Shown: in pieces, positions 15,478-63,675 of the stretch | Position numbering within the stretch: the first letter of the stretch is position 1 | Layout: each line of letters opens with the position of its first letter | Origin: Rhizophagus irregularis | Lineage: Eukaryota > Glomeromycota > Glomeromycetes > Glomerales > Glomeraceae | Assembly (NCBI RefSeq): GCF_026210795.1 | Contig: NC_089430.1 | Coordinates: 5,332,001-5,396,000 of the forward strand | Reading direction: 5' to 3' | DNA length: 64,000 bases | The notes under the pieces: generated by a model | What the model was told of the DNA's origin: nothing | Database searches by the model: none | Seen by the model: only the letters and a program-made list of their open reading frames with translations | Made by a program: the position numbers and the translations under genes

Positions 15478-17464
15478 TCAATCATTAACCATATTAATAT
15501 CTAATTGAGAAATATCAATTTGTAAAGATTCTATTTAATAAGTAAAAATTTATTAGTTAATATCTTTTAAAACTAATTTACATTTTAAAAACGAAATTAT
15601 TAAACGATACCTGAAAATTTCTCACTAATTATATTATCATTTTGTTCATAATAATCGTCAGAATTTTTTGGTTCGGGAAGATTATTAAAATCAAGTAATC
15701 TACTTGTATAAATAGCTTCTGAATGTGTATTATATGATATTCCTAAATTATTTGAAGTTATACCGCTATTTGACGAATTATTGTTTATTTCATCTGCTTC
15801 CTTAATTTGTGCTTGTAATTCTATTGTTTGTTTATCATTTGGTTCATATTGCCATCTAAGTAAAATATTGTATATGTCTTCTGCTGTTGGTCGATTTAAC
15901 GGATTAGAGTCTAAGCATTTTTTAATTAAGTGCACAATTAATTGCGGCACTTTAATGTTAAACCTTGGTCTAATTCCTTTGCAAACTTTTATTGCTAAAT
16001 TATTATCATGGTTTAAATCATGATATGGGGGTAATCCAGAAATTACTTCATACATTACTATACCAAAACTATAAATATCGGCAGCTGTTGTATAATTTTG
16101 TCCTCTTAAAATTTCAGGAGCTATATAAGGTAAAACACCATATTTCTTATTTTTCGTATTTTCTGATGTATAACAATCTGCAGGCTTACATAATCCCATA
16201 TCAGTTATAGTAGTTTTATTTTTAAACTTTAATATATTTCCAATATGTAAATCTCGATGAATTAATTCCTTTTCATGAATACATTTAAGTCCAATAATAG
16301 TATAATGTAAATATTTAAACATTTCAATCCAATTAAGCTTATTATATTCTTTATCTAAATAATTTCGTAAACTTCCATCTTCTGCATATTCTAAGACCAT
16401 TATATAATTTTTCGTTTTTGGATCCTGAGTTATTCCATATAATCTGACAATTGCATTATTATCCATTTTCACTTTATTATGAAGCATGATCTATGATGTA
16501 AATGTAAAAATACAAAATATATTAGTAAAACCAACAATCTAGGTATTATGATCAAAAATATTATACTAAATTAATCAAATTATACCTCATTCATAAATCC
16601 TAATGTAACATTTTTTGAATTGTCTAAACTTTTCAGAGCTACAAACATATCTTTATTATATCTTTTCCAATTTTGGTTACTATTATCCCAACCAGCTAAA
16701 TAACCATCAATCCAATTTGCTCTATATACTTTACCAAACCCACCTTTTGCAGTATATATAATATCATAAAATCTATCATGAGGTATCCATTCTAAAGCAT
16801 TTGTAAATAGTTCAATATTATTATGTATTAATAGCTGACTGTCTTGAATAAATATATCAATATCATCATTACCACTGGTCCAATTTTCAAAATTTTGTTG
16901 AAAATGCATTGCATAACATGTATAATTACATTTTTTACATATAGTATTATTCATCAAAACCATCATGTAACTTTTTGTTTCTGGATCTTGAGTTATTCCA
17001 AAAGGTATATTAATCTACAAATACAAATATATTAGTAGAAATTAAAAATTTCAAAATTTAATTCATTATCATACCTCATCCATAAGTTTTATTCTAATAT
17101 TTTTTAAATTATTTAAACTTTTCAGAATTACATTTTTACTTCCATATCTTTTCCAATTTTTATTTTTATTATTCCAACAACTTATATTTCCATCAATCCA
17201 ATTTGCTTTATACACTTCACCAAATTCATCTTCTGCAATATATTTAATATAATACAATCTATTATAGGGTATCCATTCTAATGCTTCTTTTAAATCATTA
17301 TGAGATGATAGCTGAGTATCTTGAATAAATTTGTCAATATCATTATTACCACTAGTCCAATTTTTGAAATTTTGTTGAAAACGTATTACGTAACATATGC
17401 GATTACATTCTTCACATTTCTTGACATGTGATAAATTAGTTGTTTCCTTAATACCTAAATCCAT
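15478..17464 (-). CDS. Kinase gene 1: TKL-like protein kinase with two N-lobe modules
   Basis: Exons (minus): 17464-17075, 17014-16586, 16490-15611, 15530-15478; total 1752 nt, 583 aa, all joins in frame. Exon 1 starts MDLGIKETTN, then a Cys cluster C-x2-C-x3-C, WTSGNNDID and a degenerate N-lobe (AEDEFGEVYKANW, VILKSL). Exon 2 begins INIPFGITQDPETKSYMMVL, repeats the Cys cluster and WTSGN, and carries a canonical N-lobe (AKGGFGKVYRANW, VALKSL, EFMNEV or close variant). Exon 3 holds beta4-beta5 and the C-lobe: IHRDLHIGN catalytic loop, TDMGLCKP in place of DFG, APEILRGQNY, DIYSFGIVMYEV. Exon 4 supplies the tail ESLQIDISQLDINMVND. Expected activity is Ser/Thr or dual-specificity phosphorylation in cytosolic signalling; substrates are unknown. 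Compared with the usual single N-lobe member of the family, it has one extra N-lobe in front. Confidence 0.85.
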
Positions 17465-20454: not shown

Positions 20455-21310
20455 AAGACTGCAGATTGAATCAGCGACTTAATGGTCTATTCTTAAAAAT
20501 GGCACCTAGACTATTTATTGTTGTAGGTCCAATATCTGATGATTCTACAATTTTATTTTGATTTAAACTCATATACTTGATAAAATTTATGATTATAATT
20601 AGCTATTGATCTTTTGCCGGATCGGAATGCCAACATCTCTTCATTAATTCAAAATATCCTTCAGATGCATTTGTAGCAATTGGTAGTCGTAAACCATCAC
20701 ATATTTTTATTATAAGTTATTACTTAAATAATGTATCAAATAACCCTAACTATTATAATCTTCATATCTTTAGTAATAGGATCGTGAGTAATTAGTAATT
20801 CCAAAATATTCACTAACGTCATTATTATTTATATTATTATTTGATAAAATTTGATAATATACCTTAAGCAATAAAAAAAATATTAATTTGTCATCGTCAC
20901 GTTGAATATTGCATGTACCGTACCTCGTTAAGTTAGTTCCTTGGATGTAATGTTTTTAGAATTGTTAAGTTTTTTGAGAGCAGTATAATTATTCTCACGA
21001 ACAATACTATTAGTATTTCTAAAGTGGTTCTTATCAATTGGACCATCAACTCATATAGCTTTATAAATTTTATTAAATCCTCCTTTGGCAATAAATTCTA
21101 TATTTTTAAATTGATCATAGGGAACAAACCCAACATCTCACGTCTTATACTTGTAACAAAATCAACTTGTGTACATCTAATCATGTTATCAATGACTTTA
21201 TTTCCACTTGAATTATCTCTGAATATCTCGACAAGTCTTATGATTTTCATTTATAGTTTTTCTTTCCTTACATTTTTTACATATTATTTTTTCTTTATTA
21301 AGAATAGTTA
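20455..21310 (-). pseudogene. Decayed TKL-like kinase gene
   Basis: Reading the minus strand: a Cys cluster (IICKKCKE..) near 21285; FVPYDQFKNIEFIAKGGFNK with KIYKA (N-lobe and glycine loop) near 21130-21060; ALKKLNNSKNIT (beta3 Lys) near 20970; then, after most of the C-lobe has been lost, LRLPIATNASEGYFELMKRC then WHSDPAKDQ (C-lobe alpha helices) near 20690-20610; and finally VESSDIGPTTINSLGAIFKN-RPLS, a family tail, near 20550-20470. Several in-frame stops and the missing catalytic loop make it non-functional. It belongs to the same broad kinase family but has a different tail class (SSDIGPTT) from genes 1, 3, 4 and 5. Confidence 0.7.
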
Positions 21311-28685: not shown

Positions 28686-29295
28686 TTAATTATTATTCAA
28701 TTGAGATATATCAATTTGTAAAGATTCTATTTAATAAAAGGATTTATTAGTATATTTAAAACTGATTTGCATTTTTAAAATAACAAAATTATTAATAATA
28801 CCCGAAGATTCCTGACTTATTATATTATCACATTGTTCATCAGAATTTTTTATTTTGGGCCTACAAAAATAAAATAGTACATTAAATATAAATAATATTA
28901 TTAATAATTGATCATATAAATTAAAAAACTTACATTTTATTATTACTTAACTGATATATATCAATTTGTAGGGATTCTATTCGATAAAAGCAATTTTATT
29001 AGTATATTTAAGCATTTTTAAAATAACAAAATCATTAATTAATACCTGAAGATTCCTTGCTTATTATATTATCATATTGTTCATCAGAATTTTTTATTTT
29101 GGGCCTACAAAAAAAAACAGTATACTGAATATAAATAATATTATTAATCATTAATCATATAAATTAAAAAACTTACATTTTATTATTATTCAATTGAGAT
29201 ATATCAATTTGTAAAGATTCTATTTAATAAAAGGATTTATTAGTTTATTTAAAACTGACTTACATTTTAAAATAACAAAATTATTAATTAATACC
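28686..29295 (-). repeat. Triplicated two-exon C-terminal tail, about 245-bp period
   Basis: After the C-lobe exon, the segments ESLQIDISQLNNNKM and PKIKNSDEQYDNIISKESS alternate, each bounded by TAG acceptors and GT donors, with phases 1-2-1-2-1 preserved. The order is E-SLQ(29219-29177), PKI(29104-29046), SLQ(28976-28934), PKI(28860-28802), SLQ(28726-28686, stop). The tail normally appears once in genes 1 and 4. Confidence 0.8.
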
Positions 29296-32200
29296 TGAAA
29301 ATTCATTGCTTATTATATTATCATTTTGTTCATAATAATCATCAGAATTTTTTGGTTCAGGAAGATTATTGAAACTGAGCAATCTACTTGTATAAATAGC
29401 TTCTGAATGTGTTTGATATATTCCTAAACTAGTTGAAGATATATTTTTATTTGATGAATTGTTTATTTCATCCGCTTCTATAATTTGTGCTTGTAATTCT
29501 ATTGATTCATCATATTGCCATTTATGTAAATCATGTAAAATATCTTGTGCTTTTGGCCTATTTAATTGATTTGCATCTAAGCAATTTTTAATTAACTGGA
29601 TAATTAATTTTGGCACTTTAATATTAAACTTTGGTCTAAGTCCTTGACAAATTTTTATTGCCAAATTTTCGTCATGATTAATATCACAATATGGAGGTAA
29701 TCCAGAAATTAATTCGTACATAATTATACCAAAACTGTAAATATCCGCAGCTTTTGTATAATTCTGTCCTCGTAAAATTTCAGGAGCTATATAGGGCAAA
29801 ATACCATATATATTATTTTTTTGTATATCACAATTTGCAGGTTTACACAATCCCATATCAGTTATAGCAATTTTATATTTAAATTTTAATATATTGCTAA
29901 TATGTAAATCTCGATGAATTAATTCCTTTTCATGAATAAATTTAAGTCCAGATATAATATCAAATAAATAATTGATTATAATACTCCAATTAAATTTATC
30001 ATAATTTGTGTTCAAAAATTTTCGTAAACTTCCATCATTTGCATATTCCAAAACCATTACATAATTTTTTGTTTCTGGATTTTGAGTTATTCCATAAAGT
30101 TTTATAATCCTAAAATCACCATTTAATTTATGATGTAATATCACCTGCATAATAAAAGATAAAAAATTTAATATATTAAAAGGATAAATTGAAATTTTAT
30201 TGAATAAAAATTTATTTATACCTCATTCATAAATTCCAATGTAATTTTTTTTGAATCATTTAAACTTTTTAAAGCTACAAACATATTTTTATTATATCTT
30301 TTCCAAATTTTATTTTTATCATCCCACTTACTATCTAACCGTCCATCTATCCAATTTGCTTTATATACTTTGCCAAATCCACCACTTGCTATGAATTTGA
30401 TATTACAAAATTTACTATAAGGTATCCATTCTATCACATCTGTTATATTATTATGAGTTAATAACTGAGTATCTTGAATAAACTTATCAATATTATTATT
30501 ACCACTGGTCCAGTTATTAAAATTTTGTTGAAAGTATATTGTATTACATATCTCATTGCATTTTTTACATATATTATTCAAAACCATCATGTAATTTTTT
30601 GTTTCTGGATCCTGAGTTATTCCAAAAACTTTTTTAATCTGCAAATATAAATATGTTAACAAAAATTAAAAATTACAAAATATATTAAATGATAGATTAT
30701 ACCTCATTCCTGAATTCCTCTGCAATATTTTTTGAATCATTTAAACTTTTTAGAATTACAAACATATTATTTGCTCTTTTCCAATTTTGATTTGTATTAT
30801 TCCAATAACTTATATATCCATCAATCCAGATAGCTTCATATTCTTTGCTAAACCCTGCAATATATTCAATATTACAAAGCCTATCATAAGGTATCCATTC
30901 TATTACTTCTGTTGTATTATTATGAGCTGATAACTGAGAATCTTGGATAAATTTATTAATGTCATTATCACTGGTCCAATTTTCAAAATTACGTTGAAAA
31001 TATATTGAATTACACATATTATTGCATTTTTCACATATATCATCCAAAACTATCATATAACTTTTTGTTTCTTGATTTTGAGTTATTCCATAAAATACAT
31101 GATTCATTTTAACCTACAATATAATAATATATTAAAAAATTAAAATATTTGTAATTTTAATAATAACAAACTTACTATACCTTATTTATAAATTCTAATG
31201 TAAGATTATTTGGAGTATTTAAGTCCTTCAAATTCACAAACATATTAAAACCTTCTCTTATCCAATTTTGCTCATTATCATTCCAATAACTTATTTTTCC
31301 ATCAATCCAATTTGCTCTATACACTTTGCCAAACTCATCATCTGCAATATATTTAATATTATATAATCTATTATAAGGTATCCAATCTAACACTTCCTTT
31401 ATATCTTTATGAGCTGATAGTTGAGTATCTTGAATAATTTTATTTATATCTTTATTACCACTAGTCCAATCCATGAATTTCCGTTGAAAGTAAATGGTAT
31501 TACATATTTTGTTGCATTTTTCACATTTATCATCCAGAACTATCATATAATTCTTTGTTTCCAGATCCTGAGTTATTCCATATAATTCATGATTTATTTT
31601 AATCTAAAGTTAAATTATGTATTAGAAAAACAAAATTTTATAATTTTGGTGAGTAACAAATTTATTATACCTTATTTATAAATTCTAATATAAGATTATT
31701 TGGAGTAGTATTCAAGCTCTTCAAATTCACGAACATATTACAACCTTCTCTTTTCCAATTTTGCTCATCATCATCCCAATAATTCATTTTTCCATCAATC
31801 CAATTTGCTATATATATTTCTTTATCAATATATTTAATATTGTACAATCTATATAAGGTATCCATTCTAGTGTTTCTTTTATATCATAATGAGCTGATAT
31901 TTGAGTATTTTGAATCAACTTATCAATATCTTCATTACCACTAGTCCAGTCCATTAATTTTCGTTGAAAGTAAATGGCATTACATAACTTATTGCATTTT
32001 TTGCATATATTATTCAAAACCATCATGTAATTTTTTGTTTCTGGATCTTGAGTTATTCCAGAAGCTTTTTTGATCTACAAATATAAACATGTTAACAAGA
32101 ATTAAAAATCTCATAAATATATAAATAATTAGATACCTCATTGTTGAACTCCAATGCAACAATTTCTGAATTATCTAAACTTTTTAGAATTACAAGTGTA

Positions 32201-34984
32201 TTATGACCTACTCTTTGCCAATTTTTTTTATAGTTATTCCAATACTGTATACATCCATCAATCCAATTAGCTTTATATTCTTTGCCAAACCTTCCATTTA
32301 TAATATACTCAATATTATGAAGTCTATCATAAGGTATCCATTCTATTACTTCCGTTGTATTGTTATGAGCTAATAATTGGGTATCTTGGATAAATTTATC
32401 AATATATTTATTACCACTAGTCCAATCTATGAATTTCTGTTGAAAGTGAGTAGCATTACATATCTTACTGCATTTTTCACATATATCATCCAAAACTATC
32501 ATATAATTCTTTGTTTCTGAATCCTGAGTTATTCCATATAATTCATGATTCATTTTAAACTACAATGAAATGATAATATATTACTAGTAAAATAAAAATA
32601 TTTATCTGTTATAATTTTAATAAGTTATAAACTTACTATACCTTATTTATAAATTCTAATGTAAGATTGTTTGAATTGTTTGAAATATTTAAGTTCTTCA
32701 AATTTACAAACATGTTACAACCTTCTCTTTTCCAATTTTGTTCATCATTATCCCAATAGCTAATTTTTCCATCAATCCAATTTGCTATATATATTTCTTT
32801 ATCAATATATTTAATATTATGCAATCTATCATAAGATATCCATTCTAGTGCTTCTTTTGCATTATAATGAGCTGATATTTGAGTATCTTGAATAAATTTA
32901 TCAATATCTTCATTACCACTAGTCCAATCTATGAATTTCCGTTGAAAGTGAATAGCATTGCATATTTTACTGCATTTTCCACATATATTATCCAAAACTA
33001 TCATATAATTTTTTGTTTTTGGATCCTGAATTATTCCATAAAATTCATAATTTATTTTAATCTATAATGCAATTATATGTTAGAATAATAAAATATTTAT
33101 AATTATAATAAATAAACAACAAACTTACCTTATTTATAAATTCTAATATAAGATTATTTGGAATATTTAAGCTAATCAAATTTACGAACATGTCACAACC
33201 TTCTCTTTTCCAATTTTGTTTTTCATCATCCCAATAACTCATTTTTCCATCCATCCAATTTGCTCTACATACTTTACCAAACTTATTTTCCTCAATATAC
33301 TTAATATTGTACAATCTATTATAAGGTATCCATTCTAATGCTTTATCTGCATTATTATGAGCTAATAGTTGAGTATTTTGAATAATTTTATCAATATCTT
33401 CATTACCACTAGTCCAATCCATAAATTTCCGTTGAAAGTAAATGGTACTACATATTTTATTGCATTTTTCACATATATCATCCAGAACTATTATATAATT
33501 CTTTGTTTCTTGATCTTGAGTTATTCCATATAATTCATGATTAATTTTAATCTACAGTAAAATAACATATTAGTAAAAATTAAAATATTTACAATTTTGA
33601 TAAGTAATAAACTTGCTAATACCTTATTTATAAATTCTAATGTAAGATTATTTGGAGTGATTAAGCCATTCAAATTCACAAACATATTACAATCTTTTCT
33701 TTTCCAATTTTGTTTTTTATCTTCCCAATAACTCATTTTTCCATCAACCCAATTTGCTCTATACACTTTACCAAACTTATTTTCTTCAATATATTTAACA
33801 TTGTACAATCTATCATAAGGTATCCATTCTAGTGCTTCTTCTACATTATAATGAGTTGATATTTGAGTATCTTGAATAAATTTATCAATCTCTTCATTAC
33901 CACTAGTCCAATCTATAAATTTTCGTTGAAAGTAAATGGCATTACATATTTCATTGCATTTTTCACATATATTATTCAAAACTATCATGTAAATTTTTGC
34001 TTCTGGATCCTGAGTTATTCCATAAAATTCATGATTCATTTTAATCTACAATGATATAATAATATATTACTAGTAAAAATAAAATATTTAACTGTTATAA
34101 TTTTAATAAGTAATAAACCTACTATACCTTATTTATAAATTCTAATGTAAGATTATTTGGAGCATCTAAGCCCTTTAAATTCACAAACATATTAAGATTG
34201 TTTCTTTTCAAATTTTTATTTTTATTGTCCCAATAAATTATATTTCCATCAATCCAATTTGCTCTATACACTTTACCAAACTTATTTTCTTCAATACATT
34301 TAATATCGTATAATCTATCATAAGATATCCATTCTAGTGCTTCTTTTGCGTTATAATGAGCTGATAGTTGGGTATCTTGAATCAATTTATCAATATGTTC
34401 ATTACCACTAGTCCAATCTATGAATTTCAGCTGAAAGTAAATGGCACAGCATCTTTTATTGCAATTTTTACATATATTATTCAAAACCATCATGTAATTT
34501 TTTGTTTTTGGATCCTGAGTTATTCCAAAAGTTTTTTTGATCTACAAGTGTAATAGCACATATTACTAATTAATACTAAATGTTACAATTACATTGAATA
34601 ATAAAATAATTATACCTTATTTGCAAATTTTAATTTAACAGAGTTTGGATCATTCAATATTTCTAGAATAACGAACCTATTATGACCCACTCTTTTCCAA
34701 TTTTGTTTATACTCACTCCAATTCTGTATGCATCCATCAATCCAATTTGCTCTATACAGTTTACCAAATGACCTTCTACTCACAATATGCTCAATATTAT
34801 AAAGTCTATTGTAAGGTATCCATTCTATTACTCCTGCTGTATTATTATGAGCTGATAGTTGAGTATCTTGAATTAATTTATCAATATAATTATTACCACT
34901 GGTCCAATTTTTGAAATCTCGTTGAAAATGTTTTGCGTTACATATATAAAAGCATTGTTTACACATATCTTTTTTATTATCCAT
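28686..34984 (-). CDS. Kinase gene 3: ten tandem N-lobe modules, one C-lobe, triplicated tail (one frameshifted exon)
   Basis: Exons (minus): 34984-34616, 34541-34128, 34045-33623, 33551-33129, 33061-32642, 32559-32137, 32074-31671, 31603-31181, 31113-30703, 30638-30222 (ten N-lobe modules), 30144-29295 (C-lobe), then tail exons 29219-29177, 29104-29046, 28976-28934, 28860-28802, 28726-28686. All module exons are phase 0-0 and multiples of 3 except exon 7 (404 nt), which lacks one base near 31855. With that base the product would be 1740 aa; skipping exon 7 gives 1605 aa. Each module has C-x2-C-x3-C, WTSGN, IDK.IQ.(T/S)Q and an ALEWIPY/VIEWIPY start of the N-lobe. Only exon 10 has ASGGFGKVYKANW with VALKSL. 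The C-lobe shows HRDLHISN, TDMGLCKP, APEILRGQNY and the usual helices. It is a probable signalling kinase; the role of the upstream modules is unknown. Confidence 0.75.
30222..34984 (-). repeat. Tandem exon array: ten N-lobe modules, about 480-bp period
   Basis: Each unit is one exon of 369-423 nt plus an intron of about 60-85 nt. Internal units open just after AG with I/V/F-K-x-N-x-E then FYGITQDPETKNYMMVL-like sequence, immediately followed by a new Cys cluster. They end at EF-(I/M)N-(E/K) directly before GTAT or GTAA. Exons 5 and 7 share the same shortened loop (YIDKEIYIANW), so blocks larger than one module have been copied. Confidence 0.85.
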
Positions 34985-40327: not shown

Positions 40328-43300
40328 TTAATTAGTATTTAATTGTGGGAGATCAAATCGTAAAGATTCTATTTAGTAAATTAAAAAATTTGTTATTATC
40401 CTTTAAATTTTAATTTGCATTTTTAAAACAAATAATATATTATTAATTAATACCTGAAAATTCTATGCTTGTTATATTATCATTTTGTTTGAAATAATCA
40501 TCAGAATTTTTTGGTTCAGGAAGATTATTAAGATTAAGCAATCTACTTGTATAAACAGCTTTGGAATGTGTTTCATATGATAAACTAATAGCTGGTAAAG
40601 TATTATTGATTTCTTCTGCTTCTTTAATTTGCTTTCCTATTTCTGATTGATCACTAGAACACCAATCTTGTAAAATTTTAAAAATTTCATGTGCTTCTGG
40701 TCGATATAAAGGATTTGCATCTAAACACTTTTTAATTAATTGCACAATTAATTGGGGTACTTCAATACCACTAAAACATGGTCTAAGTCCTTGACAAATT
40801 TTTATTGCTAAATCATTATCATGGCTTAAATCATAATATGGAGGTAAACCAGAAACTATTTCATACATAATAATACCAAAACTAAAAATATCAGTTGCTT
40901 TGGTATAATTTCGTCCCCTTAAAAGTTCAGGAGCCATATATGGTAAAACGCCATATATTTCGTTCTCTGCATTTTCTGATACAATATAATTTGCAGGTTT
41001 ACATAATCCTATGTCAGTTATAGTAGTATCATCATATTTAAGTTTTAGTATGTTGCCAATATGTAAATCTCGATGGATTAATCCCTTTTCATGAATATTT
41101 TTGAGTCTACTTATAATATTATATATATAAACTACCTTTTTGTTCCAATTTAATTTACTATATTCTTTATCTAAATAATTTCGTAAGCTTCCATTTTCTG
41201 CATAATCTAAAACCATCATATAATTTTTTGTTTTAGGATCCTGAGTCATTCCATAAAGTTCAATGTTGAAGTTATTGTCTATTTTCTTTTTATTATGCAA
41301 AACAAACTATATGAAAATAAAAATACACATATATTAGTTAAATTAACAATATAAAGTATCTTAATTATAAATCAGTGTGATTAAAATATACCTCATTTAC
41401 AAATTCTGATGTAATGATTTCTGAATTGTTAAAGCTTTTCAAAATTACAAACATATTTTCATTATATCTTTGCCAACTTTTACTTTCATCATTCCATTTA
41501 TGTATTCGTCCATCAATCCAATTTGCTCTATACACTTTACTAAATCCACCTTTTGCAATATATTTTATATCATAAAATTTATTATAAGGTATCCATTCCA
41601 ACACTTTTTTATATACTCCTTCATAGTTATTACAACGCATCGATGATATTTGTGTATTTTGAATAATTTTATCAATATCTTTATTGCCACTTGTCCAATT
41701 TTCAAAATTTTGTTGAAAGTGTAATGCATCATACATACAATTACATTTTTTACATTTGTTATTAAAGACTATCATATAATTCTTTGTCTCTGGATTTTGA
41801 GTTATTCCATAAATTTCATAATCTATTTTAAACTAAAAAAATATATAATATATCAGTAAAATTAAAATCTTTTAAAATTTCATTAACAGTTAAGTAATTA
41901 TTCAATTATACCTTATTTATAAATTCTGATACAATAGATATTGAATTATTGAAGCTTTTTAGAATAACAACCACATTTTGATTCTTTCTACTCCAATTTC
42001 CATTTTCGTAATTCCAACTATGTATATTTCCGTCATACCAATTTGCTTTATATATTTTAATTTCTGAAATATATTCAATATTATAAAATTTATCATAAGG
42101 TATCCATTCCAATACTGCTTCTACATTATTATGAACTAATAGCTGAGTATCTTGAATAAATTTATCAATATCACTATTACCACTAGTCCAATTATCAAAA
42201 TTTTGTTGAAAGAGTATTGCATAACATACACAATTACATTTTTTACATTTATTATTTAAGACAATCATGTAATTCATAGTTTCTGGATCTTGAGTTATTC
42301 CATAAAACTTGTAACCTATTTTAACCTAAAAAAAATAGCATATTTGTATCAGTAAATTATAATCTTTTAAATTCCATTAAATCATGAGTTATTATACCTC
42401 ATTTATAAATTCTAATGTAATATGTTTTGGACTATTTAAATCATTCAGATACACAATCATATTTTGGTTTGTTCTCTTAATATCATTACTATTAACCCAA
42501 TAATTGATAATATGTCCATCATACCAATTAGCTTTATATACCATCTTGCCAAACATGCTTTCTGAAATATGTCTAATATTATAAAATCTATCAAAAGGTA
42601 TCCATTCTAATGCTTTACTTGCATAATTATGATCTGATAGCTGGGTTTCTTGAATAGCTTTATCAATATCATGATCACCACTAGTCCAATTTTCAAAATT
42701 ATTTTGAAAATATATTGCATTACATACATGATTACATTTTTTACATTTATCATTCAAAACCATCATATAATTTTTTGTTATTGGTTCTTGAGTTATTCCA
42801 TAAATTCTATTAACCTATAAATATAATTTATTAGTATAATTAAAATCATTTAATCTTTTAAAATTTACATTAAATAATAAATTAGGCACCTCATTCATAA
42901 TTTCTAATTTAATATGTTTCGACTTATTTAAGCTTTTTAGTATCACAATAAGTTTAGGATAATTTTTTCTTCTCCAATTCTGATTTACATAATCCCAATT
43001 CCATATATATCCATCAATCCAATTTGCTTTATATGTTTTGACAGAACTGCTTTCTAAAATGTGCTTAATATTATAAAATCTATCATTAGGTATCCATTCT
43101 AATGTTCCTTCCACATTATCATGAGCTGATAGCTGAGCATCTTGAATTAATTTATCAATATCATTATCTCCACTAGTCCAATTATCAAAATTTTGTTGAA
43201 AGTGCATTGCATTACATATGCTATTGCATTTTTTACATTTAGTATTCAAGACCATCATGTAATTCTTTGTTTCTGGATCCTGGGTTATTCCATAGACAAC

Positions 43301-44319
43301 ATAATCTATTTTAATCTAAAATATAAATATATTAGTAAAATCAAAAATTTCAAATTTTTATTATTACTGCATAATATACCTCATTCATAAATTCTAATGT
43401 AATATTTTTTGACTTATTTAAGTCTTTTAGTTCTACAATCATATTTTGATATTTTCTTTTCCAATTATGATTTTCACAATCCCAATACCATAAATATCCA
43501 TCATACCAATTTGCTTTATGTATTTCACCAAACCTACTTTCTAAAATATGCTTGACATTATAAAGTCTATTATAAGGTATCCATTCTAATATATCTAATA
43601 CTCCATATTTAGTATGATCTGATAACTGAATATCTTGAATAAAATTATCAATATAATTATCACCACTAGTCCAATTTTCAAAATTTCGTTGAAGATGTAT
43701 TGCGTTACATATAAAATTACACTTTTTACATTTATTATTTAAAACCATATAATATAAATTTTTTGTTTCAGGATCCTGAGTTATTCCATAAAATTCACTA
43801 TCTATTTTAACCTATAAATAATAATATATTAGTAAAAATAAAGATCTCAAAAAAAAAAAAAAAAAAAATTTAATAATAATAAATTATTAATTATACCTCA
43901 TTCATAAAATTTAATGTAAGATTTTTTGAATTATTTAAAGTTTCCAGATTTACAAACATATTTTGATAATTCCTTTTCCAACTTTCATTATGATGATCCC
44001 AGTATAGTATACGTCCATCAATCCAATTTGCTCTATAAATCTTACCAAACTTACCTTTCGCAATATATTTTATGTCATAAAATCTATTATAGGGTATAAA
44101 TTCTAACGCTTCTTCTGTATTATCATGAGCTGATAGTTGTGTATCTTGAATAAATTTATCAATATCATTGTCGCCACTAGTCCAATTTACAAAATTTCGT
44201 TGAAAGTGTATTGAATTACATGTATTATTACATTTTTCACACATCACATATAATTCATTAATATGTGATGATGATTCCTTAGTAGTTAGCTTATTAATAT
44301 CTTTGATAAAAGAATTCAT
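40328..44319 (-). CDS. Kinase gene 4: six N-lobe modules plus C-lobe, fully open (1148 aa)
   Basis: Exons (minus): 44319-43897, 43811-43380, 43315-42890, 42814-42398, 42325-41912, 41832-41392, 41306-40454, 40368-40328; total 3447 nt with every join in frame and no internal stop seen. Exon 1 starts MNSFIKDINKLTTKESSSH. Modules carry C-x2-C-x3-C, WTSG(N/D), ID..IQ and an N-lobe. Loop sequences are degenerate upstream (AKGKFGKIYRANW with VNLETL; ILESRFGEIHK; ILESSSVKTYK; ISESMFGKMVYK; ISEIKIYK) and near-canonical in the last (AKGGFSKVYRANW, VILKSF). The C-lobe exon has HRDLHIGN, TDIGLCKP, APELLRGRNY and DIFSFGIIMYEI. Tail: ESLRFDLPQLNTN. The last loop has Ser for the second-to-last Gly. It is the best evidence in the window that the multi-module form is a maintained protein. 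Predicted: cytosolic TKL-like kinase with repeated N-lobe beads. Confidence 0.82.
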
Positions 44320-55950: not shown

Positions 55951-58900
55951 CTAAGAAAAAAAAAAATATTATATTAACTGTTAATTACGAATGAAAAAAC
56001 ATAAAGTTATTATAATTATTATGTAGAAATTAATATTTACTATCTTCTTCAATGTTCAATTGAGAAATATTGATTTGTGAAGATTCTATTTAATAAATTA
56101 AGACTTATTGTTAGTATTTTATGAACTAGATATTTTCAAAGTCATACATAAGTAAACTATTTACCGTTCTCATTAATATTCAATTGAGAAATATTAATTT
56201 GTAAAGATTCTATTTAATAAATTAAAGTTTATTATTAGTATTATATTGACTAAATATATTTAAAAAGCAGCAATTAATAAATATTTAATTAATACCTGAA
56301 AATTCCTTGCTTATTATATTATCGATTTGCTCATAATAATCAACAGAATTTTTAGGTTCAGGAAGATTATTGAAACTAAGCAATCTACTTGTATAAATAG
56401 CCCCTGAATGTGATTTATATGATATTCCCAAGCTAGTTGAAGGCTTAATATGAACTCGTGAATTGTTATTTATTTTTTCTGTTTCTTTGATTTGTTTCTG
56501 TAATTCAACTGTTTCATTATCACTTTCTTTATATTGCCATTTGCGTAAAATATTAATAACTTCTATTGCTGTTGGTCTATTTAGTTGATTTGCATCCAAA
56601 CACCTTTTAATTAACTGAACAATTAATTGGGGCACTTTAATATTAAATCTTGGTCTAAGTCCTTGACAAATTTTTATTGCTAAATAATTGTCATGGCTTA
56701 AATCATAATATGGAGGTAATCCAGAAATTAATTCATACATATTTATACCAAAACTGTAAATATCTGCAGCTTTTGTATAATTTTGTCCTCCTAAAATTTC
56801 AGGAGCTATATAAGGTAAAATACCATATATATTATTTTTTGATAAATTACAATTTGCAGGTTTACACAATCCCATATCGGTTATAGCAACATTATTTTCA
56901 TGTTTCAACATATTACCGATATGTAAATCTCGATGAATTAATTCCTTTTTATGAATAAAATTAAGCCCAGATACAATATCATCTAAATGTCTAAATATAC
57001 TTTTCCAATTTAATTCATAATATTTTATGTCCAAATATTTCCGTAAACTTCCATCATTTGCATATTTCAAAACCATTACATAATTTTCTGTTACTGGATC
57101 TTGAGTTATTCCATAAAATTTTGTAATTCTAAAATCATCATCTACTTTATGATGTAACATCATCTATATATAAAAGGTAAAAAAATAACTGATATTAAAA
57201 GTATAAATTGAAATTTTTTGAATAAAAATTTATTCATACCTCATTCATAAATTCTAATGTAATGTTTTTTGAATCATTTAAACTTTTCAAAGCTACATAC
57301 ATATTTTTATTATACCTTTTCCAAAGTTGATTTTTATCATCCCAATAACTTATATTTCCATTAATCCAATTTGCCTTATATACTTTACCAAATCCACCTC
57401 TTGCAATATATACAATATTACAAAATTTACTATAAGGTATCCATTCCAATGCATGTGATATTTCACTATTTTTATGAGCTAACAACTGAGTATCTTGAAT
57501 AAACTTATCAATATCCTTATTACCACTAGTCCAATATATAAATTTTCGTTGAAAGTATATTGAATTACATGCATAATTACATTTTTCACATATGTCATTC
57601 AAAACAACTATATAACTTTTTGTTTCTGGATCCTGAGTTATTCCATAAAATTCACGATTTATTTTAATCTATAATGTAATAATATATTAGAAAATTAAGA
57701 TTTTTATAATTTTGTTAAGTAATAGCTTATCAGTACTTTACCTTATTTGCAAATTCTAATGTAAAATTAATTGGATTATTTAAACTTTTCAAAATCACAA
57801 ACATATTAAGATTCCCTCTTTCCAATTTTTCATTTGTATCATTCCAACTAAATATTTTTCCATCAATCCAATTTGCTTTATACACTTTACCAAATTTATT
57901 TTCTTCAATATGTTTAATATTATACAAACTATCATAAGGTATCCATTCTAGTGCTACACTTATATCATAATGAGCTGACAGTTGTGTATCTTGAATAAGT
58001 TTATCAATATAATTATTGCCACTGGTCCAATTTTTGAAATTCCGTTGAAAGTATATTGAATTACAGGTATAATTGCATTTTTCACATATATCATCCAAAA
58101 CAATCATAAAGTTATTTGTTTTTGGATCTTGAGTTATCCCATATAATGTATGGTTAAATTTAATCTACAAATATATTAATATATTATTAGTAAAAAATAA
58201 TAGATTTTAAAATCTGTGCATAGTAATGAATCAATAAAGTAAATACCTCATTTATAAATTCTAATGTAAAATTAATTGGATTATTTAAACTTTTCAAAAT
58301 CACAAACATATTAAGATTCTTACTTTTCAATTTTTCATTTGTATCATTCAAACTACATATTTTTCCATCAATCCAATTTGCTCTATACACTTTACCAAAC
58401 TTATTTTCTTCAATATATTTAAAATTATAGACTCTATCATAAGGTATCCACTCTAGTGCTCCTTTTACATCTTTATGAGATGAAAGTTGAGTATCTTGAA
58501 TGAGTTTATCAATATCATCATTACCACTGGTCCAATCTACGAATTTCTGCCCAAAGTAAATGGCATTGCACAATTTATAGCATTTTTTACATTTATTATT
58601 CAAAACCATCATATAATCGTTTGTTTCTAGATCCTGAGTTATTCCATAAAATTCATTGTTTCTTTTGATCTACAATGTAATAATATGTTAAAAAAATAAA
58701 GTTTTTAAAATTTTGTTAAGTAATAAGCTTATCAGTATACCTTAATTGCAAATTCTAATGTAAGATTATTTGGATTATTTAAAATATTCAAATTCACAAA
58801 CATATTATGATTCTTTCTTTTCAATTTTTCATTTGTATCATTCGAACTACATATTTTTCCATCAATCCAATTTGCTCTATACACTTTACCAAACTTATTT

Positions 58901-59810
58901 TCTTCAATATATTTAAAATTATAGAGTCTATTATAAGGTATCCACTCTAGTGCTTCTTTTACACCTTTATGAGATGATAGTTGAGTATCTTGAATAAGTT
59001 TATCAATATCATCATTACCACTCGTCCAATCTATGAATTTATGTTGAAAATAAATTGCATTGCACAATTTATAGCACTTTTTACATTTATTATTCAAAAC
59101 TATCATATAATTTTTTGTTTCTAGATCCTGAGTTATTCCATAAAATTCATTATTTATTTTAATCTACAATGTAATAATATGTTAGAAAAAATAAAGTTTT
59201 AAAATTTTGTTAAGTAATAAGCTTATCAATATACCTTATTTGCAAATTCTAATGTAAGATTATATGGATTATTTAAACTATTCAAATTCACAAACATATT
59301 ATGATACTTTCTTTCCAATTTTTCATTTGTATCATTCCAATTACATATTTTTCCATCAATCCAATTTGCTCTATACATTTTACCAAGCTTGTTTTCTTCA
59401 ATATATTTAATATTGTACAATCTATCATAAGGTATCCATTCCAGTGCTTCCTTTGCATCACAATGAACTGATAATTGTGTATCTTGAATAAGTTTATTGA
59501 CATCATTATTACCACTGGTCCAATTTTCAAAATTATTTTGAAAGTGTATTACATTACATACATTATTACATTTTTCACATATATCTTTCAAAACGATCAA
59601 GTAATTCCCTGTTTCTGGATCTTGAGTTATTCCATAAAACTCATGGTCTTTTCTAATCTACAAATATGAAATATGCATAAATTATTATTAGTAAAGATAA
59701 TAAATTTCACATTCCGTGTATAGTAATGAATCAAATAAAATACCTTATTTATAAATCCAAATTTAACATTTTTTAAGTTATTTAAACTTTCCAGCTTTAC
59801 AACCATATTT

Positions 59811-62800
59811 CTTTGCAGAAACCTCTGGTTTTCACAAAATATGTCAGACATAATCACTACATATTACTAACAGATGGTATATATATGTTCTATATATTTT
59901 AATATACGCAATATGTTTGTAATATTAATAAAATAATGTTATAATATTTTTAATATATGTTGAAATTTAAACTTAAACTAATATAGTGTAGTAAATATTT
60001 TTGTAATATGAATAAAATAATTTTACAATATTTTCAAAGTATGTTAAAACATGTACTTAAACAAATGATATAATGAATATTTTGAATATGTTGTTAATAT
60101 ATTTCAAGTATGCTGTTGATATATGAATAACATATTTTGAATACTGTTGTTGATATACAAACAATATATTTTGAATATGTTGTTGATATATGAATAATAT
60201 ATTTTGAATATGTTGTTGTTATATGAATAACTGCTTCTAGCATGTGACTGTCATGTGACTATAAGGTTGATCGCTAGTGCATTTTTTTCGTCTTAGTTAC
60301 CAAATCACTACTTTATATTGGCTATATGAAGGCAATATGAAACCTTAATTTTTTTAATTTTAAATAATATGATTTTTTTTAAAAAAAATAAAAATAAAAA
60401 TTTATAATTTTATCCTTTTAACGAAAATACAAATTGTGTTCAATTTACCTAATGCTAAAAAATAAATCTTGATTAGCTTTGCCATTTATCATAACACTAA
60501 TTTATTAAAATGCATTATAATAATATAATAAGGACACTCGTTATTGTTAATTTATTGATATATAGCAAAAATGTATTTAATTTAAATAGTAAATAAATTG
60601 TGTAATCAAACATAAGATATCAATATTGATATATAATATATATTTAAAAATCATAAACTTCGTAGCCACGCTCAATTAAGGCAATGTATTACTAGACCTA
60701 CACTAAAGATGACTTTAGCAAGGCTTTCTTTGTGAATTAAAAGAAATTTCATACACTTTGCCAGCTGGTGGGATAGCTTATGACCTCTAACAAGTCTGTT
60801 TATACTTTATACTAATAAATCCAGAATGTTTGCACCGCTAATAAAATGTATCCTAAAAAAATAAAATAGATAAATGAGCAATTAGTAAACAATCAAATTA
60901 AATAAAAAAAAAATACTTTCTTTTTTTGTTTATAATCACATGATATCAATTGATTTGCATAACAGTGACTTGTACAGATGATCCCGGGAAAATTACAGCC
61001 GATACGATCAATATACCAACCAAATTTTACGCATCTAGATCCATCTAAAGAGAAAAGCTACCCATAGCCAAACATGATAATATAACAATATCAGCCACAA
61101 ATCCTTTGAATGACTTTATTTTGACTCACAATATAAAATATGGGCCATTTTCTGATAAAAGATTTATTATATATTTTTTTTTTAGTAGTAAAACGTAATA
61201 CTTTATCAAAAAAATAAAAGTAAAAAGAAAACCAAAATTTTCATGTACTATATAATACTTTCTGGTTCCTTTATAAATGGTTCTTCCATTGAAAAAAAAG
61301 CTTTTACTAAAATAATAATATTTCTATAGGAAAGAAAAAAATTTTTAGGTTATAGAAAGTTGGAAAAAAAGTGTGAAAAAAAAGGAAAAAAGTTTATATA
61401 AATAAGTATTTTAAGTGGGAAAAAAAAGTTCAAATTTTCGGTTATACAAACTTATTGTAATAAATTCGCGTCATGTGATTTAATATTAGCAATATAACAA
61501 TATCACTTTTTTTTAAAAAAAAGTATAACTTTAAAAAAAGTCTAAAGTTAAAGTTTAAAAAAAAGTTAAACTTTTTTCGGCATAAACTTTTTTTTGGTAA
61601 ACTTTCCTCTCTCATTTTCCCCCTTTCCCTCTCTTTTATAATTTCCCTTTCCCTCTTTTCATTTTTTCCCTATCTCTCTTTCATGTACTTCCCTTTTTCT
61701 CACTTTTTTCTTTTTTTTTAGACAGATGTAAATTTCAGTATTCTTTGAATATTTTTGGACAAGGATTTTGGTAAGAGGAATGTTTCTGGCCTATCTCTTT
61801 AATGAAATAATTATTAATGTTCTGTTTCTTTTCTCTTTTAAGCGACTTTTTAGTTCTTTGGATATGGATTTTGGTTTTTTTAAAAAAATTTCTCTATTTC
61901 GTCTTTTAAAATGCTTTTTTTTTTTAAACGGCTTGGATACTAGGATTTCAGTAAGAAATTGGCCTTGTTTTTTCATATTTTTAGACAAGTTTGGACGCGT
62001 AGAATAGGTAAGTTTCAAAAACAGAAATTTGAAACTTTAAAGAAAAGTTTTTTTAAAACTTATTTTTGTTTGATTTTTGTAGGAAATTAGCTCTGACTTG
62101 AAAGCTGGAATTCTAGATAATGGCGAGTTGAACTCAAAACTTTTAAAAAAACTTTTTATCATTTTTTTTTTCAATCAGTTCCGACTTGGAAAACTGAAAT
62201 CTCAAAGATTGTAAGTTTCGAAAATAGGAATTCAAAATTTTAAAGAAAAAAATTTTTTTTTACATTTTTTCTTTTTTTGTAGGGAAATCAGCTCTGACGG
62301 ATGTAGACACCAGATTCCCAAGTGAGTATCAAAAATATTTTTGAAAATTATTTCTTTAGTAGGACTCCTATCTTTAGAACTCTTGTGAAAGATGTTTAAT
62401 TACAGTAGCGTCTTCTTTTATTTTATGTTTTCCTTTGACTCAATTATCAGAGTTCCCAGTATGATAACTGGTCTTTATATTGTTCGGATTGTGCGAAATT
62501 AGTAGATGAAGGTAAACTTTTGGGAAAATAAATTCGAAAATGATAAAAAATTGTGATTACTGTTTTTTTCTTTTTTTTTTTTTATAGGATGGATTTCCAA
62601 TTGATCGGATGGTGAGTTCAAAATTTTGAAATTAAATTATTTCAAAATTAAATTTTTTTAAATAATATTTAACTTTTCCTCTTTTTTATAGGAAATGGAT
62701 TCTGGTTCTTGAGTGGATTGGATGGTAAGTTTTGATTTTAAAAACTTAATTTATTTAGCTATTTTTTTATTAATGAAATAATATTAACATTTTATTTATA

Positions 62801-63377
62801 TTTATTTTATAGAAGGCTAAAGAATCACTACGGTGGTTTCAAAATTTTCCAATTACCTTGGTTGATCACATTCCACGTTTATTCTTTATCACAATTGTAG
62901 GAATACATAATACTGAGCATAATGAAGGAAATCGATGTTATATTTTATTATAATGCGGTATTGGTATGGATAATAATATTATTAAGAATTATATAGTATT
63001 TTAAATTTTTTGATAGATGAGAGAAACATTTGTGCCATATGATATTGTATACATGTAATTAAATTTTTGATTATTTTAATAAATTGATTTATAATATTTC
63101 CAACATATTTTTGATATATAATGAAAACATCCCTATTACATATTTCCAACATATTTTTGATATATAATAAAAACATTCCTATTACATATTTTCATCATAT
63201 TTTTGATTGATGTTTAACATATTCTAGACATATTTTTATTTCATATTTTTGACATATGCTTAACATATTGCTGTTATCGAGTTACAACAGAGTTAACAGA
63301 AATACGTATGCAATATGGTGATCATATTTTAAAAATGTTTCTACCATATTTTTCAAAATCGATAGGTTTCAGCAAAG
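59811..63377. mobile_element. 3567-bp TIR element, copy B (inverted relative to copy A), inside kinase gene 5 exon 1
   Basis: Ends CTTTGCAGAAACCTCTGG and CGATAGGTTTCAGCAAAG; TTT flanks both sides (59808-59810, 63378-63380). It is near-identical to 50105-53667 in reverse orientation, including identical short frames at both ends. It lies inside the glycine-loop/beta3 region of the first N-lobe exon. The length differs from copy A by about 4 bp, mostly in homopolymer runs, so the transposition was recent. Confidence 0.88.
61728..62945 (+). other. Series of short splice-site-bounded segments in copy B (mirrored in copy A at 50525-51760, minus)
   Basis: Repeated T-rich tract + (T/A)AG, then 24-60 nt, then GT(A/G)AG: for example 62451-62511, 62588-62611, 62692-62724 and an end segment from 62813. 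Two upstream segments begin alike (GAAATTAGCTCTGACTTG, GGAAATCAGCTCTGACGG), suggesting duplicated micro-exons. Individual segments look peptide-like (SSQYDNWSLYCSDCAKLVDE; KAKESLRWFQNFPITLVDHI), but I could not chain them into one open frame. It may be a micro-exon gene, a decayed gene or a spliced non-coding transcript. Confidence 0.3.
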
Positions 63378-63675
63378 TTTGATGCCTTATCCAATCTCGT
63401 TTATATATACTCCAACGAAATATACATCCATCGATCCAATTTGCTTTATACACTTTACCAAACTTGTTTTCGTCAATATATTTAATATCATCCAGTCTAT
63501 GATAAGGTATCCACTCTAGTGCTACTTTTACATTTTTATGAGATAATAATTGAGTGGCTTGAATGAGTTTATCAATATCATTATTACCACTAGTCCAATC
63601 TATGAATTTATGTTGAAAATAAATTGCATTGCACAATTTATAGCACTTTGTACAATTATTATATATTTCGGCCAT

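Follow-up and report, generated by a model that had tools for sequence, protein, structure and literature searches.

The window analysed here is a stretch of 64,000 nucleotides of Rhizophagus irregularis DNA (assembly GCF_026210795.1, contig NC_089430.1, positions 5,332,001 to 5,396,000 of the forward strand) with a G+C content of 24.5%. It harbours four protein kinase genes, A, B, C and D, all on the minus strand, in which 2, 10, 6 and 6 modules, respectively, each encoding a kinase N-lobe segment, precede one C-lobe per gene (Table 1). The C-lobes of all four genes contain HRD, the catalytic-loop Asn and DMG or DIG, with a catalytic loop of HRDLHIGN in genes A, C and D, and the modules of the window are 49-74% identical to module 3 of gene B (B3).

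Table 1. Features of the four kinase genes in the window (positions in the window) and sizes of further module arrays in the genome
Feature	Position	Strand	Description
Gene A	15603..17464	minus	C-lobe frame open to 15603
Gene A modules	17075-17464, 16586-17014	minus	first module with ATG
Gene B, whole	28686-34984	minus	start codon to stop codon
Gene B module 1	34616..34984	minus	start codon at 34984; Cys cluster, WTSGN, beta1-alphaC
Gene B module 2 exon	34128..34541	minus	end of bead 1 (beta4-beta5), followed by the linker and beta1-alphaC of bead 2
Gene B module 3 exon	33623..34045	minus	
Gene B module 4 exon	33129..33551	minus	
Gene B module 5 exon	32642..33061	minus	glycine loop deleted
Gene B module 6 exon	32137..32559	minus	
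Gene B module 7	31671..32074	minus	frameshifted near 31850, apparent 1-nt deletion
Gene B module 8 exon	31181..31603	minus	
Gene B module 9 exon	30703..31113	minus	
Gene B module 10 exon	30222..30638	minus	C-lobe-proximal; only GGFG of gene B
Gene B C-lobe exon	29295..30144	minus	end of alphaC, beta4-beta5, HRDLHISN, DMG, APE
Gene B C-terminal tail	28686..29219	minus	five small predicted exons, stop at 28686
Gene B tail exons (predicted)	29177-29219, 29046-29104, 28934-28976, 28802-28860, 28686-28726	minus	
Gene C	40328..44319	minus	six modules, C-lobe and tail
Gene C modules	43897-44319, 43380-43811, 42890-43315, 42398-42814, 41912-42325, 41392-41832	minus	first module with ATG
Gene C C-lobe	40454-41306	minus	
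Gene C tail	40328-40368	minus	
Gene D	56288..63675	minus	split module 1, five further modules, C-lobe frame open to 56288
Gene D module 1	63.4-63.675 kb (5' half), 59.74-59.8 kb (3' half, from 59744)	minus	halves about 3.5 kb apart
Gene D further modules	59235-59657, 58741-59163, 58247-58669, 57742-58164, 57240-57668	minus	
Array L001			12 modules
Array L002			9 modules, one truncated
Array L003			13 modules
Array L004 with L029			21 modules
Array L005			at least 3 modules, sequence ends at edge
Array L008			7 modules

From start codon to stop codon, gene B occupies exactly the span that an earlier note had given for a kinase gene of ten N-lobe modules in front of one C-lobe exon. All ten modules were located there, with the qualifications that module 7 is not open to its end and that the distal modules, i.e. 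those other than the C-lobe-proximal one, have no glycine loop. The C-lobe frame of gene B matches Pfam families PF00069 (Pkinase, 5.3e-40) and PF07714 (PK_Tyr_Ser-Thr, 4.1e-38) and carries the HRD, the catalytic-loop Asn, a DFG-like motif (DMG) and the APE of the kinase superfamily. On the strength of PF07714, we assign the kinases of the window provisionally to the TKL group. In the tail of gene B, a pair of exons is repeated in tandem.

In module B7 an apparent 1-nt deletion, recognised by eye against the sister modules, is followed by a stop, and the remainder is open in another frame up to the donor; with exon 7 left out and the other exons joined as predicted, the product of gene B is open over 1605 residues. 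According to the cited text on the published R. irregularis assembly, which is Nanopore-based and comprises 32 scaffolds, its quality amounts to about Q36 (PMC10234402), and single-base indels like that of B7 may therefore be assembly errors. Such errors are also what could be said for an explanation of the whole arrangement as an artefact, in which one exon would have been stuttered in the long-read assembly. We regard this as next to impossible, given that modules differ by median dS values of 0.18-0.86 in the individual arrays (pairs with dS of 0.05-1.2) and by the identities to B3 mentioned above, and that 15 arrays are found at distant places of the genome.

Gene C, when joined as predicted, is open end to end with no exon left out and encodes 1148 residues, in which Pfam recognises one kinase domain at residues 794-1062 (positions 5-257 of the 258 of PF07714). 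What Pfam detects in this product is the last N-lobe and the C-lobe only. Searches with single module exons gave no kinase match in Pfam (4/4) and no match in NCBIfam (2/2), and a module profile found no match among PDB sequences at E values up to 1.

Genome-wide, DNA encoding WTSGN occurs at 1741 places (4 for a reversed-pattern control) and HRDLH-type C-lobes at 993 (control 0). Adjacent WTSGN pairs at a distance of 441-515 bases number at least 355 (85 + 222 + 48; controls 0), a lower bound because the exact motif was required and longer spacings were left uncounted. Pattern-based scans of viral and prokaryote contigs yielded no relative. We examined 15 arrays on several contigs, with up to 21 modules each; the longest lies at 1,368,134-1,379,014 of the same contig as the window. 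A first set of 12 loci consisted of the four window genes and L001-L008. For a second sample, which was not random, every fifth row was taken from the best 100 of 147 C-lobe rows by score, together with 5 kb of upstream sequence; 15 of the 20 genes had a single module and five were arrays of at least 5, 6, 8, 5 and 10 modules, as counted within the 5-kb limit. This bears out the statement of the earlier note that one N-terminal exon normally precedes the C-lobe in such kinases. Upstream of L013 (2.8 kb), a WTSGN fragment of 27 residues was seen and excluded from the module count.

In a tree of 86 modules, two subfamilies were separated with a support of 100, and arrays occur in both. Distal modules grouped mostly by array, often with moderate support, but the distal modules of B and D, two neighbouring genes, intermixed. 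The eight closest module pairs with both introns defined have introns that differ by only 0-4 bases in about 60-77, which indicates that exon and intron were duplicated as a unit. L004 also contains a recent copy some 4.3 kb distant, in which L004_10 is identical to L004_1 and L004_11 nearly identical to L004_2. The earlier note had counted four such genes in the window with 2, 10, 6 and 6 modules; these counts are right, module 1 of gene D being split, and understate a phenomenon that extends to several contigs and at least two deep subfamilies.

The repeating unit had been described as running from the Cys cluster to alphaC, which proved to be mis-phased. In the 12 loci, 75 of the 76 internal exons start with the beta4-beta5 motif GI[TS]Q..Y, as in the opening stretch IKINHELYGITQDLETKNYMIVL, and the C-lobe exon has the same beta4-beta5 at its own start (VILHHKLNGDFRIIKLYGITQNPETKNYVMVL). 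Internal exons therefore open with the beta4-beta5 of the preceding N-lobe, so that each bead is split by an intron in alphaC, beta1-alphaC is only its 5' part, and complete beads can be obtained only via serial splicing. To this, each unit contributes a linker (WTSGN, mostly a Cys cluster, and a helical-looking stretch) and a beta1-alphaC segment. The distance from the junction to GITQ was 16-19 residues in all ten C-lobe exons measured; in internal exons it was mostly 5 or 8 in the subfamily of the window and about 15-18 in the second subfamily, with few outliers, so that in the window's subfamily the internal exons have lost part of the alphaC end.

Under a strict rule, by which a phase-0 intron of 55-100 nt had to open with GTA or GTG directly behind a codon for E or K, 76 of 88 junctions of the 12 loci were accepted, with introns of 60-97 nt (median 73). 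A wider rule, which also admitted D and N at this position and lengths of 50-100 nt, accepted 30 of 37 junctions of the five second-sample arrays and L029; 12 and 7 junctions, respectively, are without the canonical form. In the window, 23 of 24 junctions consist of E or K, GT, 60-95 nt and AG in phase 0, and the missing one is that after the frameshifted module B7. As the junction finder was limited to codon boundaries and favoured E and K, phase 0 is here an assumption and not the outcome of a comparison with other phases. Of the 76 introns, 33 contain a branch-point-like CTAAY or CTGAY, against a mean of 7.7 and a maximum of 14 after shuffling. An avoidance of intron lengths divisible by three seemed to exist at first (8/77) and was dropped on replication (10/30). 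All 141 gap runs between neighbouring open module exons had lengths divisible by three, a count that covers modules detected as open frames, with the three broken modules of the set excluded. In single-module genes, the 13 introns found among 15 sampled genes measure 63-107 nt.

These features also bear on the idea that each module might be a small gene of its own. Most internal exons have Met codons in an NYMMVL stretch that could serve as translation starts, but the roughly 60-100 nt between modules leave scant room for a promoter and a polyA site, and where a first exon has its leader, an internal exon has the last part of the N-lobe before it. Separate genes are thus very improbable.

The glycine loop distinguishes proximal from distal N-lobes. 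In the first set, from which B_7 and D_1 were dropped as their loop is unreadable and whose 12 proximal modules include two single-module genes, the GG of the loop was found in 11/12 proximal and 0/74 distal modules, and its critical Gly in 11/12 and 3/74. Other positions were better retained in distal modules: the beta3 Lys was present in 12/12 proximal and 62/74 distal modules, the alphaC Glu in 12/12 and 46/74, the Trp of WTSGN in 11/12 and 67/74, and the three Cys in 9/12 and 56/74. In the second sample, drawn once this difference had been noticed, GGF was found in 5/5 proximal modules, in 1/29 distal modules and in 15/15 single-module genes. The exceptions are distal module L022_4, which retains GGF, and proximal module L005_3, which is without it. 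Modules within an array are kin, so Fisher values overstate their independence and the count by array serves as the basis: in 14 of 15 arrays GGF is present in the proximal module, and in 14 of 15 it is missing from every distal one. A glycine loop kept almost solely next to the C-lobe points to a chain of pseudo-N-lobes on one kinase, not to interchangeable N-lobes.

When distal beads were joined across the junction and compared with a profile of the 12 proximal N-lobes, 69 of 69 matched with a median coverage of 1.00, the 69 being those of the 74 distal modules with a parsable next exon, whereas none of 69 shuffled beads did. Since the modules are kin, these matches speak for the completeness of beta1-beta5 and not for independent homology. 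An AlphaFold model of the internal exon B3, obtained with 21 window modules, had a pLDDT of 51.8 and was too poor for use.

Combinatorial use of the modules had been proposed as the counterpart to end-to-end splicing. One chosen N-lobe exon, or a subset, would be joined to the C-lobe exon in a Dscam-like manner, giving many alternative kinases, and the equal phase of the exons together with lengths that are multiples of three would make each of them skippable in frame and allow broken modules such as B7 to be tolerated. As a source of alternative N-lobes we nevertheless consider this improbable. With GG in 0/74 and GGF in 1/29 distal modules, a swapped kinase would hardly hold ATP normally, and the beta4-beta5 carried over at the start of 75/76 internal exons would be useless under mutual exclusion; moreover, the array introns (60-97 nt) resemble those of the single-module genes (63-107 nt in 13 of 15). 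Thus, of the two modes put forward in the earlier note, end-to-end splicing agrees with the sequence, namely with phase-0 introns at one codon, the carry-over of beta4-beta5, gaps in threes and the 69/69 beads. Combinatorial choice of alternative N-lobes fits poorly with distal modules that have no glycine loop; of that proposal, in-frame skipping of distal modules may apply.

The modules were also compared with respect to selective constraint. For distal pairs, median dN/dS values were 0.38-0.78 across nine arrays (dS of 0.05-1.2 and more than 90 codons; modules with stops excluded). For the 22 closest non-overlapping pairs taken together, pN was 0.066 and pS 0.091 (Fisher p 7.5e-4), which corresponds to a pN/pS of about 0.72, and the intron difference was 0.073 in the 19 of these pairs with both introns defined; the two values together indicate that recent copies evolve nearly neutrally. 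Constraint on the young copies is real but weak. Strong positive selection had been hinted at by single pairs with dN > dS, and the pooled count lends it no support. The 615 counted differences in the 22 close pairs include no stop, modules with stops having been excluded previously, and the share of random substitutions that create stops is 6-8%. At least 4 of 123 modules are broken (B7, D1, L002_4 and L023_1); the module search relied on open frames, which badly broken modules could escape.

Weak constraint in young copies (pN/pS of about 0.72), some broken modules and the loss of catalytic residues are what would be expected if the distal modules were decaying remains, left behind by unequal crossing-over upstream of a functional single-module kinase and useless whether or not they are transcribed. 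However, arrays of 5-21 modules are still open with 141/141 gaps in threes, stops are missing among the 615 differences even though 6-8% of random substitutions would create them (again with stop-bearing modules excluded), and the dN/dS medians of older pairs are 0.38-0.78. Furthermore, Trp and the beta3 Lys are mostly kept while the glycine loop is gone, a pattern from which uniform decay would differ. We therefore judge decaying remains to be an unlikely explanation.

Taken together, the predicted gene structures suggest that each gene probably encodes one complete TKL-like kinase whose N-terminus is extended by a string of loop-less N-lobes. The transcript would be spliced through all modules; broken modules such as B7 would be skipped in frame, or that copy would be defective; and the product of gene C would comprise five pseudo-N-lobes and one kinase. 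It seems quite probable that the beaded chain is translated and, given translation, highly probable that the distal beads do not bind ATP. Loss or deletion of the ATP-holding loop, with core residues mostly kept, makes spare catalytic lobes unlikely, and phase-0 introns would permit in-frame skipping of distal modules.

A regulatory or recognition arm, though somewhat less likely than not, is conceivable as the role of the beads. As a non-catalytic arm, they might bind partners or kinases, or might act on the terminal kinase via N-lobe contacts, and the length and sequence of the array might be tuned by unequal crossing-over between units of equal phase. In one version the N-lobe surfaces would touch the terminal or other kinases, comparable to what the cited text describes for the pseudokinase domains of JAK (PMC8141879), and in another they would bind outside partners, comparable to the decoys that the cited part of the wheat literature proposes for tandem kinases (PMC10260399). 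The data favour neither of these two roles. Some support comes from the weak constraint for an arm that would be useless and merely tolerated.

More tentatively still, the N-lobe might be used as a stand-alone repeat domain, up to about 21 times. Many kinase genes, perhaps hundreds, would thereby possess an arm for recognition or scaffolding that recombines rapidly and has no catalytic role, with a sensor derived from the kinase's own N-lobe and possibly employed in partner or nonself recognition. The N-lobe is usually seen as half of one folding unit, and long open arrays would show that it can act as an autonomous repeat domain. If true, this would constitute a new class, a repeat receptor kinase whose sensor consists of N-lobe copies. 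The arrays would also tell what some of this arbuscular mycorrhizal fungus's very large kinase expansion is made of, and domain counts would overlook most of the modules. They lead one to expect long transcripts, binding of ATP confined to the last bead, and variation in array length from strain to strain.

With respect to known systems, the genes belong to a known kinase family; the proximal N-lobe is complete (Gly 11/12, Lys 12/12, Glu 12/12) and, in gene C, predicted to be joined to the C-lobe. Judged by predicted gene structure, however, the architecture falls outside the definitions of tandem kinases and of two-lobed pseudokinases. Dscam-like clusters possess runs of homologous exons before constant exons. 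The arrays share such exon runs, but here neighbouring exons supply the two parts of one bead on either side of the junction, and the distal ones are without catalytic residues, so that serial splicing fits and mutual exclusion does not; by sequence, a glycine loop found almost only in proximal modules is at odds with interchangeable exons.

For Rhizophagus, an expansion of TKL-like kinases with 2,533 kinase genes has been described in the cited sections (PMC10234402; also PMC6123716, PMC8647823). These expanded kinases are of the same gene family as ours, and single-module genes (15/20 sampled) are its ordinary form. What the cited sections of PMC10234402, PMC6123716 and PMC8647823 report is the expansion and tandem duplicate genes, not N-lobe exon repeats within a gene. 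The plant tandem kinase-pseudokinases (Yr15, PMC6170490; Lr9/WTK6, PMC10260399) are, as far as their cited descriptions go, similar to the arrays in having duplicated kinase pieces in one protein, of which one unit is thought to be active and another degenerate, and a decoy role has been proposed. By the same descriptions, whole domains are duplicated in plants and there are two of them, whereas the fungal arrays repeat nothing but the N-lobe, in up to 21 units on a single C-lobe. A tandem kinase is defined by at least two complete domains of kinase or pseudokinase type, which the four window genes, with one C-lobe each, do not have.

Distal beads have no C-lobe of their own, and hence neither HRD nor DFG, and GG is found in 0/74, which places them, with a fold deduced from the sequence, among non-catalytic pseudokinase units, but as N-lobes only and not as two-lobed pseudokinases. 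The JH2 domain of JAK is two-lobed. According to the cited text, JAK-type proteins (PMC8141879) resemble the arrays in that a non-catalytic unit of kinase fold lies N-terminal to an active kinase, on which it acts in JAK; JH2 occurs once and as a complete pseudokinase domain, whereas the arrays consist of repeated N-lobes. A literature search over titles and the starts of abstracts, with few subscription journals, yielded no description of repeated N-lobe exons. No kinase that combines more than one N-lobe with a single C-lobe is known to us. Fungal NLR proteins have a comparable layout, in which a signalling domain bears a long arm of recombining repeats (WD40, ankyrin, TPR); in the arrays, the repeated unit is one half of a kinase domain.

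The array of 21 N-lobe modules that is formed by loci L004 and L029, elsewhere in the genome, contains duplicated segments, module 1 of L004 being identical to module 10 and module 2 nearly identical to module 11, and this internal duplication is recent. The Cys cluster is absent from this array, and in most of its modules beta5 is followed almost directly by WTSGN or a variant of it.

Within the window, other sequence, about 3.5 kb long, separates the two halves of module 1 of the six-module kinase gene D. The stretches at 59.9-60.2 kb and 63.1-63.3 kb are connected by several inverted repeats, which are imperfect (71-82%) and are perhaps the worn ends of an inserted element. The C-terminal tail of the ten-module gene B consists of a tandem repeat (2.5 copies) of two small predicted exons of 43 and 59 nt, each with its own splice signals. 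One further N-lobe module is present as a relic.

Coordinates of the features described (window or local locus numbering)
Feature	Sequence	Position	Strand	Remark
Module relic	window	20931-21250	minus	broken over three frames
Gene B tail repeat	window	28686-29219	minus
Gene D, split module 1	window	59744-63675	minus
Duplicated segments	L004	3-869 and 4304-5206
Pseudokinase-like region (C-lobe and proximal module)	L005	267-1187

In another module array, L005, the C-lobe carries ISNMES where the DMG motif is expected and the proximal module, which adjoins the C-lobe exon, has lost GGF; the entire kinase looks like a pseudokinase. An array is also found in a more distant subfamily, at L009, where five modules, most of them with PSGN in place of WTSGN, precede one C-lobe with the motif HQDIHSEN.
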